A stretch of 64,000 bases of DNA from Sphingomonas sp. EC-HK361. Its GTDB lineage: Bacteria; Pseudomonadota; Alphaproteobacteria; Sphingomonadales; Sphingomonadaceae. The DNA is taken from assembly GCF_902498785.1 (NCBI RefSeq), contig NZ_LR701493.1:992724-1056723 (forward strand). Direction: 5' to 3'. Numbering within the stretch: position 1 is the stretch's first letter; each line of letters begins with the position of its first letter. Below the pieces are notes generated by a model that made no database searches, was not told the origin of the DNA, and saw nothing but the letters and a program-made list of their open reading frames with translations. This document shows, piece after piece, positions 9,077 to 63,384 of this stretch. Both the position numbers and the translations under genes were made by a program.

Positions 9077-9103
9077 TCAGCCCTTACACAAGTTGCCCAA
9101 TGT

Positions 9104-9152
9104 GCTCCCGCGAAGGCGGGAGCCCAGTCTGGATCCCCGCCTTCGCGGGGAT
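9104..9152. repeat. Paired REP-like palindromes
   Basis: Two GC-rich hairpins in inverted relation, GCTCCCGCGAAGGCGGGAGC (9104-9123) and ATCCCCGCCTTCGCGGGGAT (9133-9152), lie 27 bp after the S9 peptidase stop. The cores CGCGAAGGCG and CGCCTTCGCG are reverse complements. A third related piece with GGTGGATGCCGG and GGCATGACGG follows at about 9242-9272. These are dispersed intergenic repeats of the type common in sphingomonads and could attenuate transcription. The 209-bp gap before asd holds nothing else I can identify. Confidence 0.75.
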
Positions 9153-9285
9153 ACATTCAGAGGCATAGGGCGCAGTAGATAACCCGACTTGTTCCTTGGA
9201 CCACCGTGTTGCAAGAGCCGCGACGACGGTGCTTGTCCCGCGGTGGATGCCGGAACAAGTTCGGCATGACGGTTGGAGGCATATG

Positions 9286-13277: not shown

Positions 13278-14188
13278 TGCGCCAGCTGGCGATCATCGCG
13301 GCGGTGATCGCCATTCTGGTCGGCGCGACCGCCTATTCGGCGGGGCCGGGGATGCTGAGTCTCCTCGACGGCCTGATGGGCGGCGGGCGCGGGACGGCGC
13401 GGGTCGGGACCGGCATCGCGTTCGGGACGCACGGGCAGAAGCTGGACGTGTGGCGGCCATCGGGCGGGCCGCGCACAAATCTGCCGGTGTTGATCTTCTG
13501 GTATGGCGGCGGGTGGGCGCACGGGACGCGGGACGAATATGCGTTCGCGGCGCGGGCCTATGCGAAGAACGGGTTCGTCGTCGTGATGCCCGACTATCGC
13601 AAGGTGCCGGAGGTGCGGTTTCCCGCGTTTCTTCAGGACGGCGCGGAAGCGGTAAGGTGGACGCGCGATCATATCGCGGAGTTCGGTGGTGACCGCGACA
13701 CGCTAGCCGTCGCGGGGCATTCGGCGGGCGCCTATACGGTCGCGATGCTGGCGCTCGACCAGCGCTGGCTGCGTGCCGAGGGCGTCGATCCGGGGATTAT
13801 CAAGGCAGCGGTCGGGCTGTGCGGGCCGTATGACTTTTACCCCTTCACAGCCAAGCGCGCGATCGATGCGTTTCAGGGCGCGGCCGATCCGGTGACGACG
13901 CAGCCCATCCACTTCGCCCGCGCCGACGCGCCGCCGATGCTGCTCGTGTCCGCGGGAAACGACACGCAGGTCAAAGCGCACAACGCGAACAATCTGACCG
14001 CACGACTGAAGGCGCTGGGCGCGCCGGTTACGCATATCGACTACCCGGGCCTCAGCCACGAGAATGTCGCGATGGCGCTATCCAAGCCCTTCCGCGGCAA
14101 GGCGCCGGTGCTCGCCAACAGCGTCGCGTTCATCAAGGCCGCGCTGGCGCGTGCGCCGTCTCCGGCATCGCAAGCCAATACAAGATAA
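13277..14188 (+). CDS. Alpha/beta hydrolase (carboxylesterase, HSL/BD-FAE-like)
   Basis: Predicted esterase, 303 residues. An N-terminal hydrophobic stretch ([23 protein letters not shown]) suggests a signal anchor or export signal. The oxyanion motif is WYGGGWAHGT, with Tyr in place of the usual His of HGGGW; the nucleophile elbow is GHSAGAY, the acid is probably in SAGNDTQV and the histidine in YPGLSHENV. Its ATG uses the A of the scoB stop (TGATG), so translation is likely coupled. The last 56 bp overlap the 3' end of the convergent MFS gene. Confidence 0.85.
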   Translation: MRQLAIIAAVIAILVGATAYSAGPGMLSLLDGLMGGGRGTARVGTGIAFGTHGQKLDVWRPSGGPRTNLPVLIFWYGGGWAHGTRDEYAFAARAYAKNGFVVVMPDYRKVPEVRFPAFLQDGAEAVRWTRDHIAEFGGDRDTLAVAGHSAGAYTVAMLALDQRWLRAEGVDPGIIKAAVGLCGPYDFYPFTAKRAIDAFQGAADPVTTQPIHFARADAPPMLLVSAGNDTQVKAHNANNLTARLKALGAPVTHIDYPGLSHENVAMALSKPFRGKAPVLANSVAFIKAALARAPSPASQANTR

Positions 14189-32873: not shown

Positions 32874-34382
32874 ATGGGCGGGATGTACGACGAATCGCGG
32901 ATCGCCCTCCACGCGGTCTGGACACGCCGCTGGTTGGGGCTGGCGGTGGCATGGGGCGTGTGCGTGCTCGGCTGGCTCGTCGTCTCGCAGATGCCGAGCA
33001 AGTATGAGTCGCGCGCCCGCGTTCAGGTGCAACTCCGCTCGATGCTGCCGCCGGGGGTTGCCGGGCAGAATCCCGGCGACGACGTCGATACGATCCGCCA
33101 GACGATGACCTCGGCGGTGAACCTCGAAAAGGTTGTGCGCGGGACCGATCTGGCCACGACCGCGTCGAGCGACCGCGAGATCGCAGATCGGGTGTCCGGT
33201 TTGCAGCAGAACATCAAGGTCGTCGCACAGCAGAACAACCTGTTCGAGATCACGACGACCAGCGGATCGCCCAAGCTCGCGCGCGACATCACTCAGAAGC
33301 TGATCGACATCTTCGTCGAGCAGAACCTGTCCGACGACCGCAGCGAGAACAGCCAGACGCTCGCCTTTCTCGACCAGCAGCTCGCCCAGCGGCAGAAGCA
33401 GCTGCAGGATGCCGAGGCGAAGCGCGCCGATTTCCAGAACCGCTATCTCGGCTCGCTTCCCGGCACCGGCTCGGTCGCCGACCGGATGGGGGCGTCGCGT
33501 ACCCAAATGGCACAGGTCGACAGCGACTTGGCGGCTGCGCAGTCGGCGCTCGCCGCGGTATCGGGGCAAATGGCCGGAACGCCCAGGACGATCGCAGGCG
33601 CGGGCATCGCACCAGGCGTTGGCCCGGCGCGCGCGCGCGTCCTCGCCATTCAGGGTCAGCTCGCCGATGCGCGGTCGCGCGGCTATACCGATGCGCATCC
33701 CGATGTGATCGCGCTGAAGGCGCAGCTTGCCGCCGCCAATGCCGCCGCGCGGGGTGAACCGGCGGGCGCCGATGCTGGCGGCACACCGAACCCGACCTAT
33801 CTTTCGCTCCAGTCGATCCAGGCCGATCGTCAGGCGGCGGTCGCATCGCTGATGGCGCGCAAGCGGCAGTTGCAGGGCGATCTGGACCAGCTCACCGCCA
33901 AGCTCTCCGACGACCCGACGGTCGCCGCCGAGCAGGGGCAGATCGATCGCAGCTATCAGGTACTGAAGGACCAGTACGACCAGCTCCTCGCCCAGCGCGA
34001 GCAGACGAGCCTGCGCGGACAGGCGGCGACGCAGACCGATTCGGTGAAGTTCAGCGTCATCGATCCGCCGACGTCCCCGCGCACGCCCACCGCGCCCAAC
34101 CGGCCGCTTCTGCTGACCGGGGTGCTTTTTGCGGGGCTCGCGGCGGGCATCGGCGCGGCGTTCGCGATGTCGAAGCTGCAGACGACGTTTCCGACCGCGG
34201 ACCGGCTGGAAAAGGCATCGGGCATGCCGGTCATCGGCCAGATCGGCGAGATGCTGACCCAGGCGCAGGATACCGAACGGCGCCAACGCTTCAAATATTT
34301 CGCCGGGGCCGCGGCGGCGCTGGTGGCGAGCTGGGTGCTGTTGCTCGGTGTCGAGATGCTGCAGCGGGGGATGGCCGCATGA
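32874..34382 (+). CDS. XrtA-type polysaccharide chain-length determinant protein
   Basis: Wzz/GumC-like inner-membrane co-polymerase of 502 residues. First membrane helix at about 20-40, a long periplasmic region with coiled coils (QTLAFLDQQLAQRQKQLQDA), then the Pro-rich FSVIDPPTSPRTPTAPNRP preceding the second helix at about 415-435; an additional hydrophobic segment ends the protein. It starts 2 bp after the export lipoprotein and overlaps the kinase by 4 bp, so these three form the synthesis-export core. Confidence 0.9.
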   Translation: MGGMYDESRIALHAVWTRRWLGLAVAWGVCVLGWLVVSQMPSKYESRARVQVQLRSMLPPGVAGQNPGDDVDTIRQTMTSAVNLEKVVRGTDLATTASSDREIADRVSGLQQNIKVVAQQNNLFEITTTSGSPKLARDITQKLIDIFVEQNLSDDRSENSQTLAFLDQQLAQRQKQLQDAEAKRADFQNRYLGSLPGTGSVADRMGASRTQMAQVDSDLAAAQSALAAVSGQMAGTPRTIAGAGIAPGVGPARARVLAIQGQLADARSRGYTDAHPDVIALKAQLAAANAAARGEPAGADAGGTPNPTYLSLQSIQADRQAAVASLMARKRQLQGDLDQLTAKLSDDPTVAAEQGQIDRSYQVLKDQYDQLLAQREQTSLRGQAATQTDSVKFSVIDPPTSPRTPTAPNRPLLLTGVLFAGLAAGIGAAFAMSKLQTTFPTADRLEKASGMPVIGQIGEMLTQAQDTERRQRFKYFAGAAAALVASWVLLLGVEMLQRGMAA

Positions 34383-35383
34383 CGAACGCTGCCCGCCAAT
34401 CCTCGCTGATCGAACGCGCGGCCGAGGTCTATGATTTCGGCAAGCATTTGCGCGGAACCACCGATAGCGGATATGCCGCCAATCCTCCCCTTCAAGGGGA
34501 GGGGGACCATGCGCAGCATGGTGGAGGGGTATCCCCCGATCGAAAGAGCGATACCCCTTCGTCAGGCGCTGACACGCCTGCCACCTCCCCTTCCAGGGGA
34601 GGATTTGGGATCGACGATCCCGCCATGCCCGAATGGTTTGCCGCACCCGTTGGGGTCGCGGCGATCGACCGGGCGATGCTGGCGCAAAAGGGGATGCTCG
34701 TCCCCGGTGCACCGATCGGGGCGCTGGCCGAGGAGTTTCGGCTGGTGAAGCGCCAGCTGCTGCTGACCGCGAAGACCGTTGCATCGGGGCCGCTCGGCGA
34801 CCGCGCGCGCACGATCCTCGTCGGCTCGGGCAAGCCCGGCGACGGCAAGACCTTCTGCGCGATCAACCTCGCGCTGTCGCTCGCGGCGGAGCGGGACACC
34901 AACGTGCTGCTGGTCGATGGCGACTTCGCGAAGCCCGATGTCATGAAGACGCTGGGGCAGGACGATTCCACCGGGTTCCTGGACGCGCTGGGCGACGATG
35001 GGCTCGATCCCGAGAGCTGCGTCGTCGCGACCGACGTGCCGCATCTGTCGCTGATGCCGTCCGGCAAGCGCACCAATCACGATACCGAACTGCTCGCGAG
35101 TGCACGCACGGGGGCGGTGATCGACCGTTTGCTGGCGGCCGATCCGCGACGGATCATCATCTTCGATACCCCGCCGGCGCTCGCGGCGTCGCCCGCGTCG
35201 GTGATGGCGTTGCAGGTGGGGCAGGTGATGCTCGTCGTCCGCGCCGACCGGACGACCGAGGGCGATGTGGCGAAGGCGGTCGGGCTGCTCGATCGGTGCG
35301 AGCATATCTCGCTGGTGCTGAACGCGGTGTCCTACGCGCCCGGCGATGGCCGGTTCGGCAGCTATTACGGGCAGGAGAGGTAA
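34379..35383 (+). CDS. XrtA-associated tyrosine autokinase with in-frame palindromic insertion
   Basis: BY-kinase of 334 residues that controls polysaccharide polymerisation together with the chain-length protein. Motifs: Walker A SGKPGDGKTFCAINLAL, Walker A' VLLVDGDFAKPD, Walker B IIIFDTPPALA. The C-terminal Tyr cluster is reduced to GSYYGQER. Between the conserved start (SLIERAAEVYDFGKHLRG) and PEWFAAPVGVAAIDRAML lie about 42 low-complexity residues rich in Gly, Ser, Asp and Pro that are encoded by a palindromic DNA repeat (34481-34606). The frame stays open across it. Confidence 0.92.
   Translation: MTNAARQSSLIERAAEVYDFGKHLRGTTDSGYAANPPLQGEGDHAQHGGGVSPDRKSDTPSSGADTPATSPSRGGFGIDDPAMPEWFAAPVGVAAIDRAMLAQKGMLVPGAPIGALAEEFRLVKRQLLLTAKTVASGPLGDRARTILVGSGKPGDGKTFCAINLALSLAAERDTNVLLVDGDFAKPDVMKTLGQDDSTGFLDALGDDGLDPESCVVATDVPHLSLMPSGKRTNHDTELLASARTGAVIDRLLAADPRRIIIFDTPPALAASPASVMALQVGQVMLVVRADRTTEGDVAKAVGLLDRCEHISLVLNAVSYAPGDGRFGSYYGQER
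34481..34606. repeat. Composite palindromic repeat inserted in frame within the kinase gene
   Basis: Ordered hairpins: CCTCCCCTTCAAGGGGAGG (34484-34502), ACCATGCGCAGCATGGT (34506-34522), GGGGTAT paired with ATACCCC across the segment 34526-34557, GTCAGGCGCTGAC (34561-34573), then CCACCTCCCCTTCCAGGGGAGG (34581-34602). The first and last hairpins are near copies. This is the architecture of dispersed intergenic repeats in alphaproteobacteria (CCTCCCCT...AGGGGAGG with ACCATGCGCAGCATGGT). Here it is about 126 bp, a multiple of 3, and is translated. Confidence 0.85.
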
Positions 35384-44566: not shown

Positions 44567-44598
44567 CGTGACATCCTCACTATGGCTTCACCACCTCC

Positions 44599-44673
44599 GT
44601 TTGCTTCGAGCGTAGTCGAGAAGCGTCTCCGAAAACGCCCTCAAATCCGTTTCTCGACTACGCTCGAAACAAG
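44599..44673. repeat. Long inverted repeat between convergent genes
   Basis: Arm GTTTGCTTCGAGCGTAGTCG onward to 44625 is complementary, with few mismatches, to the arm at 44648-44673 (CTCGACTACGCTCGAA core). The stem is about 25 bp with a 22-nt loop. It lies between the amidotransferase and dcd, which converge on it, and may terminate both. The same TCTCGACTACGCTCGA core recurs as a dispersed repeat in sphingomonad genomes. Confidence 0.7.
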
Positions 44674-44707
44674 CGGGAAGGGTGCGTTCTGCCAAGCAAG
44701 AGCGGCG

Positions 44708-63303: not shown

Positions 63304-63384
63304 CGTCATCCCGGCGAAGGCCGGGATCCACTCATCCACTTGCGTTAACCTGCGCAGTGGATCCCGGCTTTCTCCGGGATGACG
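63304..63384. repeat. Large inverted repeat (REP pair)
   Basis: The arm 63304-63332, starting CGTCATCCCGGCGAAGGCCG, is complementary to 63356-63384 with 2 mismatches over 29 bases, around a 23-nt loop. Each arm also folds by itself (CCCGGCGAAGGCCGGG). It occupies nearly the whole gap between the acyl-CoA dehydrogenase and the alcohol dehydrogenase and is related in style to the repeat at 9104-9152. Confidence 0.85.

Follow-up and report, generated by a model that had tools for sequence, protein, structure and literature searches.

A palindromic repeat dispersed in Sphingomonas genomes lies in frame in the tether of an XrtA-associated tyrosine kinase and is probably tolerated there

In the 64-kb stretch of DNA analysed here (the window), we found that the gene for an XrtA-associated BY-type tyrosine kinase contains a palindromic segment, which we name family A. 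Judging from the sequences, this segment is probably (we put the probability at about 0.87) a tolerated copy of a dispersed palindrome of sphingomonads, inserted in the DNA for the kinase tether and read through in frame. On this reading, a highly palindromic, selfish dispersed repeat that has no gene of its own would spread mainly into the gaps between genes; one copy would have inserted where the gene encodes the disordered tether that links the conserved N-terminal motif with the catalytic domain, and its in-frame translation would add about 41 hydrophilic residues. Intragenic copies would persist if the frame stays open and the site is a flexible linker or loop. Most probably the insert is selfish DNA that a flexible linker tolerates; the full-length kinase protein is presumably made, the insert would be about neutral for the kinase, and selection against broken genes may explain why copies are found between genes or in frame.

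The kinase frame is open from the ATG at 34379 to 35383 (334 aa in the ORF reading) and residues 35–76 are encoded by the element, in agreement with the first-pass annotation, which had described an in-frame segment of about 42 codons (Table 1). Residues 109–315 match the NCBIfam family TIGR03018 (XrtA-associated tyrosine autokinase) with an E-value of 1.9e-56 and a score of 190.7 bits, which is below the family cut-off of 230.65. The end of the upstream chain length determinant gene overlaps the kinase start by 4 nt. In an AlphaFold model of the kinase (57 sequences), pLDDT is over 90 across most of the catalytic domain, the N-terminal motif region forms helices at residues 10–17 and 20–25, and pLDDT is under 50 at residues 26–59 and 61–82, which supports the earlier placement of the segment in a flexible N-terminal linker.

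Table 1. Features of the kinase gene and its element (window coordinates), and in-frame inserts in two other XrtA-system genes (locus coordinates)
Feature	Position	Strand	Basis
Family A palindromic dispersed repeat, 123 nt, in frame in kinase	34482..34604	+	aligned copies
5' arm of closing stem / terminal inverted repeat	34481..34504	+	repeat analysis, RNA fold
First internal hairpin, sequence variable among copies	34506..34522	+	copy alignment, RNA fold
Central hairpin (GGAGGGGTATC...GATACCCCTTC)	34523..34560	+	repeat analysis, RNA fold
Third internal hairpin, compensatory changes at three pairs among copies	34563..34580	+	consensus pairs, RNA fold
3' arm of closing stem / terminal inverted repeat	34581..34605	+	repeat analysis, RNA fold
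Kinase gene holding the element, XrtA-associated BY-type tyrosine kinase	34379..35383	+	NCBIfam TIGR03018
Conserved N-terminal motif of kinase (SLIERAAEVYDFGKHLR, residues 9–25), intact 5' of element	34403..34453	+	kinase alignment
Kinase domain (residues 109–315), 3' of element, in same frame	34703..35323	+	TIGR03018 match
XrtA-system polysaccharide chain length determinant (TIGR03007), upstream gene	32874..34382	+	profile match
Glycosyltransferase loop inserts, in frame	L030:16419-16516, L049:16289-16386, L053:16260-16357, 14 more loci		
Acyl-CoA ligase in-frame inserts	L043:5151-5253, L045:5272-5368		

The outer A and T of the element (34481 and 34605) are common among copies and not universal (A in 41/81, T in 54/81); when they are counted, the element extends from 34481 to 34605. 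Near-identical units had been described at both ends, and we found that 34481–34606 carries a 19-nt hairpin unit at either end, the two being 95% alike; the inverted arms of the element, 25 nt long, are 88% complementary. As RNA, the element folds at –78.5 kcal/mol (z –8.3) and 0/200 shuffles folded equally well. In the best fold, a closing stem encloses three hairpins, instead of the five consecutive hairpins first proposed. The inverted-repeat score of the kinase linker (17.5) is higher than that of all 1000 codon shuffles (maximum 15.0) and ranks fourth among 148 XrtA-kinase linkers. Inside the element, GC at the first, second and third codon positions amounts to 0.71/0.68/0.54; the kinase part downstream has 0.71/0.48/0.88 and the short upstream part 0.59/0.53/0.71. 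Because the element does not have the high third position of the downstream part, these values fit an element that was not born as coding DNA. The window holds no second family A copy besides the one in the kinase, and no match to an Rfam family at gathering score. Three palindromes of other repeat types (9099–9157, 44597–44676 and 63304–63384) are seemingly intergenic, as judged from ORF lists.

In 254 of 295 Sphingomonas-group genomes, we found family A matches at E ≤ 1e-5, with only two candidates scored per genome and up to 230 first-look candidates; the best match is 91% identical over query bases 3–123. Matches are also present in 26 of 32 genomes at E ≤ 0.1 (the genomes of 32 of the 80 kinase loci) and in 12 of 13 genomes at E ≤ 0.01 (three shared with the 32-genome sample). 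A palindrome can match on both strands, so that matches outnumber places. In the plasmid collection, 17 records carry the repeat (12 Sphingomonas, 5 Sphingobium; 128 places), and it is also found in three unannotated records of the phage collection. The contigs MT839258.1, MT840053.1 and MT840039.1 of that collection, which come from human faeces and carry the repeat, are perhaps bacterial DNA. Thus the segment is a dispersed repeat, as had been proposed, and the lack of other genomic copies that was to count against the proposal is not what the relatives display.

A pattern search (up to two errors per end, inner length 80–130) gave 81 copies of 112–148 nt, to which genome G229 contributes 41 and S. 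parapaucimobilis 8. The copies end in ATCCTCCCC and GGGGAGGAT, which are terminal inverted repeats of the kind that defines a MITE. Full-length copies have their ends and layout in common, and the internal hairpin sequences differ among copies; compensatory changes occur at 7 of 33 consensus pairs, with a small covariation term of the energy (–0.33). Target-site duplication, which also defines a MITE, was not found beyond chance in the 81 copies: 2-nt flank identities under three choices of the end numbered 4, 7 and 4, as compared to 6.9, 4.9 and 4.6 in re-paired flanks, and the longest flank identity was 4 nt, seen once. We dropped an early idea that the 49-nt end unit often stands on its own, because a match of that length may come from a full element worn elsewhere, as in L089.

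Copy number differs widely among genomes. The first-pass annotation had taken the repeat to be normally intergenic, and this holds for 19 of 19 places in a 200-kb stretch of Sphingomonas parapaucimobilis YK209 DNA (NZ_CP155751): each is intergenic, overlapping an annotated gene by 2 nt at most, as read from a gene table that is incomplete and in which an unlisted gene could be overlooked. This stretch (NZ_CP155751.1 1-200000, L165–L168) is labelled as a plasmid; it carries hisS, prfA, leuS, polA, rho, mnmG and further core genes and resembles a piece of chromosome. At least two of the six frames are stop-free in 76/81 copies (mean 3.6 of 6), and length is divisible by 3 in 35/81. Since open frames are common and these 35 lengths are divisible by 3, in-frame landing need not be rare.

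We compared the kinase tether across 171 sequences (the window, 80 loci, and 90 loci from whole genomes, 30 + 60), every one of which gave a kinase; six without the N-terminal motif or cut were left out, and 148 distinct proteins remained, the window's included. A hypervariable tether, 39 to 123 aa long in 82 loci, joins the conserved N-terminal motif to the catalytic domain. The window's peptide is absent from all 147 other distinct XrtA kinases examined, in line with the insertion proposed at the outset. We found no close strain that lacks the element, so that the empty site of the kinase insertion was not seen; between species the tether is too variable.

Four other kinases also have in-frame palindromic repeats in this tether, of kinds unlike family A: family D in L009, family B in L119 and L170, and family C in L011. 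Families A to D have no matches to each other. With the query place counted, the L009 element has 79 matches in its own genome (G009), the L119 element has 80 in its own genome (G125) and 106 in that of L170 (G184), and the L011 element has 8 in G011; the L011 element also has 60 matches in G242, and its matches fall nearly all on the end hairpins, about 30 nt. The two family-B kinases lie apart (2 changes) on a tree of 32 hand-picked catalytic domains, in which the window's placement within its clade is not resolved. When shuffles were run for the 30 best of the 148 linkers, nine exceeded all 60 shuffles; palindromes are strong (z above 6) in L140 (the same as L011), L119, L137 (the same as L009), the window and L170, and weak (z 3.7–4.0) in L121, L111, L048 and L201. 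Most XrtA-kinase linkers are without a palindrome. By eye, L111 and L067 resemble worn family C copies; the ends of L067 match those of L011, but its palindrome is no better than shuffles, and the L111 DNA has no more than one weak further match in its own genome.

In-frame copies of family A are also found in methylmalonyl-CoA mutase and in GlyS, so that the case is not special to the kinase. We classed 94 places (one more lies at an edge) by an automatic in-frame test that proved imperfect: its positives were L082, L160, L253 and L292, and it picked up neither the window nor L089, which has a low score on one side. On inspection, the real in-frame places are the window, L089 (the mutase) and L253 and L292 (both GlyS); NCBIfam identifies the last three as real genes. 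L082, L155 and L160 were rejected as hosts; in our judgement their frames read as spurious Arg/His-rich frames of antisense type.

In the mutase, family A lies in the same linker in 3/24 loci (L089, L324 and L325), and the insert peptide is of the same kind as that of the kinase (N/D-PP..GEGD...GGG). One cultured species whose mutase site is filled is S. echinoides (G029). In 20 of the other 21 loci (L346 was not displayed), the linker without insert is a junction of a few residues, and L326, which is 94% identical over residues 1–501, is a clear empty site in a close relative. By eye, the in-frame repeat of L325 (G023) seemingly contains a further palindrome.

GlyS overlaps a family A match by position in at least 8 of 30 genomes (G125, G105, G053, G034, G184, G229, G007 and G023). 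The gene is present in 29/30 genomes (G009 has a weak match only) and a second full-length GlyS in none; therefore the filled gene is, by inference, the working one. We aligned 29 GlyS loci, of which three run off the sequence end and one (L320) has an unread base. Inserts of 60 nt or more at site 2 were captured in 15/29 loci, and 14 of these 15 are palindromic beyond all 40 codon shuffles (L308 fails). This subunit, the beta subunit of glycine-tRNA ligase (L292 in G229, L253 in G184, L293–L321), thus hosts in-frame palindromes recurrently, and at more than one site.

The XrtA glycosyltransferase (TIGR03087 confirmed for L030; other loci found by motif) has a loop that is short (19–26 aa) in 38/55 loci and long (56–74 aa) in 17/55, and 17/17 long loops are palindromic beyond all 40 shuffles. 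This site is taken by two families, D (the L017 insert matches the L009 element) and a fifth, E, which has no match to families A–D. In the XrtA acyl-CoA ligase (TIGR03098 confirmed for L043), a loop is short in 19/35 loci and long in 16/35; 13 of the 16 long loops are palindromic and three are not above shuffles. In both enzymes the palindromic inserts belong to families other than A. The window's own glycosyltransferase and ligase genes are of the short form (the ligase as judged by eye). A blind scan of 80 loci gave nine in-frame candidates among 32 interior places (34 in total, two at edges); two of the candidates, L009 and L011, are circular, being kinase linkers that served as probes. 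In L007, a candidate 522-aa open frame at and around 13697–13724 seemingly holds several worn repeat copies in frame.

Could the insert instead be useful? A longer tether or a strong mRNA hairpin would then tune the reach or the translation of the kinase and be kept by selection. The variable length of the tether, the gain of palindromes there by several kinases and the very stable mRNA fold all favour this possibility; however, the insert is not conserved between species, similar peptides come from the same repeat in unrelated proteins, and most linkers do without a palindrome, so that we regard a selected function as improbable. A little more doubtful is the possibility that a RAYT (Y1) transposase moves the element as a REPIN, in which two REP hairpins form a doublet. 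One element with two inverted end units would look like this, and a 21-residue GlyS insert in L309 resembles a single unit. However, when 16 genomes were searched for the Y1 transposase (PF01797), it was absent from seven copy-rich genomes (G023, G028, G007, G004, G019, G013 and G024) and from G229, and was found in three: weakly in G026, and in G001 and G020, which have no repeat match at E ≤ 0.1.

We give slightly less credence again to a shorter kinase, in which the element would stay untranslated and synthesis would start at the ATG at 34625 (residue 83) or later. This codon is in frame, as are the ATGs at 34676 and 34694, and it could bypass the element, which counts against full read-through. 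However, relatives share the N-terminal motif, which is preserved here in frame ahead of the element, the ribosome-binding site before 34625 is only weak by eye, and a restart in GlyS or the mutase, where the inserts sit mid-protein, would cost a large conserved part. That the segment arose by chance or as an assembly artefact seems very improbable: the window has a single copy, as an artefact would, but the palindromy exceeds that of the codon shuffles, copies are present in named records and in frame in other genes, and the gene and operon are otherwise continuous. A tolerated selfish palindrome, read through in frame, therefore stays our preferred reading.

Beyond the kinase, we think it somewhat probable that sphingomonads have a process like that of the Rickettsia palindromic elements (RPE), by which palindromes of at least five unlike families repeatedly insert in frame into conserved proteins, at one small set of permissive sites (the XrtA kinase tether, the glycosyltransferase loop, the acyl-CoA ligase loop, GlyS and the mutase linker), and supply new disordered segments. 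Part of the recurrence of sites may come from a target preference of insertion itself.

Palindromes inside protein genes have reportedly been described in Wolbachia as well (protein-coding palindromic repeats, attributed to Ogata in 2005); to judge by the title alone, as given among the references of PMC3733652, family A is like them in lying within protein genes and differs in host. Like REP and REPIN elements, family A has paired inverted hairpin units and is mostly extragenic, but the seven copy-rich genomes without a Y1 transposase set it apart from those that have RAYT. As a kind, family A is RPE-like, being a dispersed intergenic palindrome with in-frame copies in conserved genes. The available parts of two papers describe RPE as palindromes of about 105–150 bp, open in frame, in several families, found within conserved protein genes as well as in intergenic DNA (PMC2229807, PMC10969869). 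The likeness first suggested therefore is one of behaviour (palindromic, in frame, genic and intergenic), as far as those parts go, and the host is Sphingomonas, not Rickettsia. Several unlike families lie at the same sites of the same proteins in Sphingomonas; those parts of the RPE papers hold no such statement.

In enterobacteria, the small palindromic mobile sequences ERIC and YPAL (RU-2) are fused in frame to genes and, according to Table 1 of the part available, have target-site duplications (PMC2229807), in contrast to family A, which has none beyond chance. The Caulobacter CIR, like family A, are long inverted-repeat elements of alphaproteobacteria between genes; however, the same part of that source describes CIR as not found inside genes and as having stops in all six frames (PMC2229807), whereas family A has copies inside genes and two or more open frames in most copies. 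Small palindromic elements fused in frame to genes are known from several bacteria; a 2024 review, in the part available, sets Rickettsia apart by how often they occur there and treats such protein evolution elsewhere as only conceivable (PMC10969869). Our literature search, which left most subscription papers and all bioRxiv preprints outside, turned up no paper about protein-coding palindromes in Sphingomonas.

Sphingomonas is free-living and can be grown in the laboratory, and therefore the neutrality, harm or use of the inserts can be tested directly. Orthologous genes with and without the insert, available across many species, also make it possible to trace how selfish DNA becomes a new protein segment. 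If sphingomonads do have an RPE-like process, selfish palindromes would keep adding disordered segments to the proteins of free-living bacteria.
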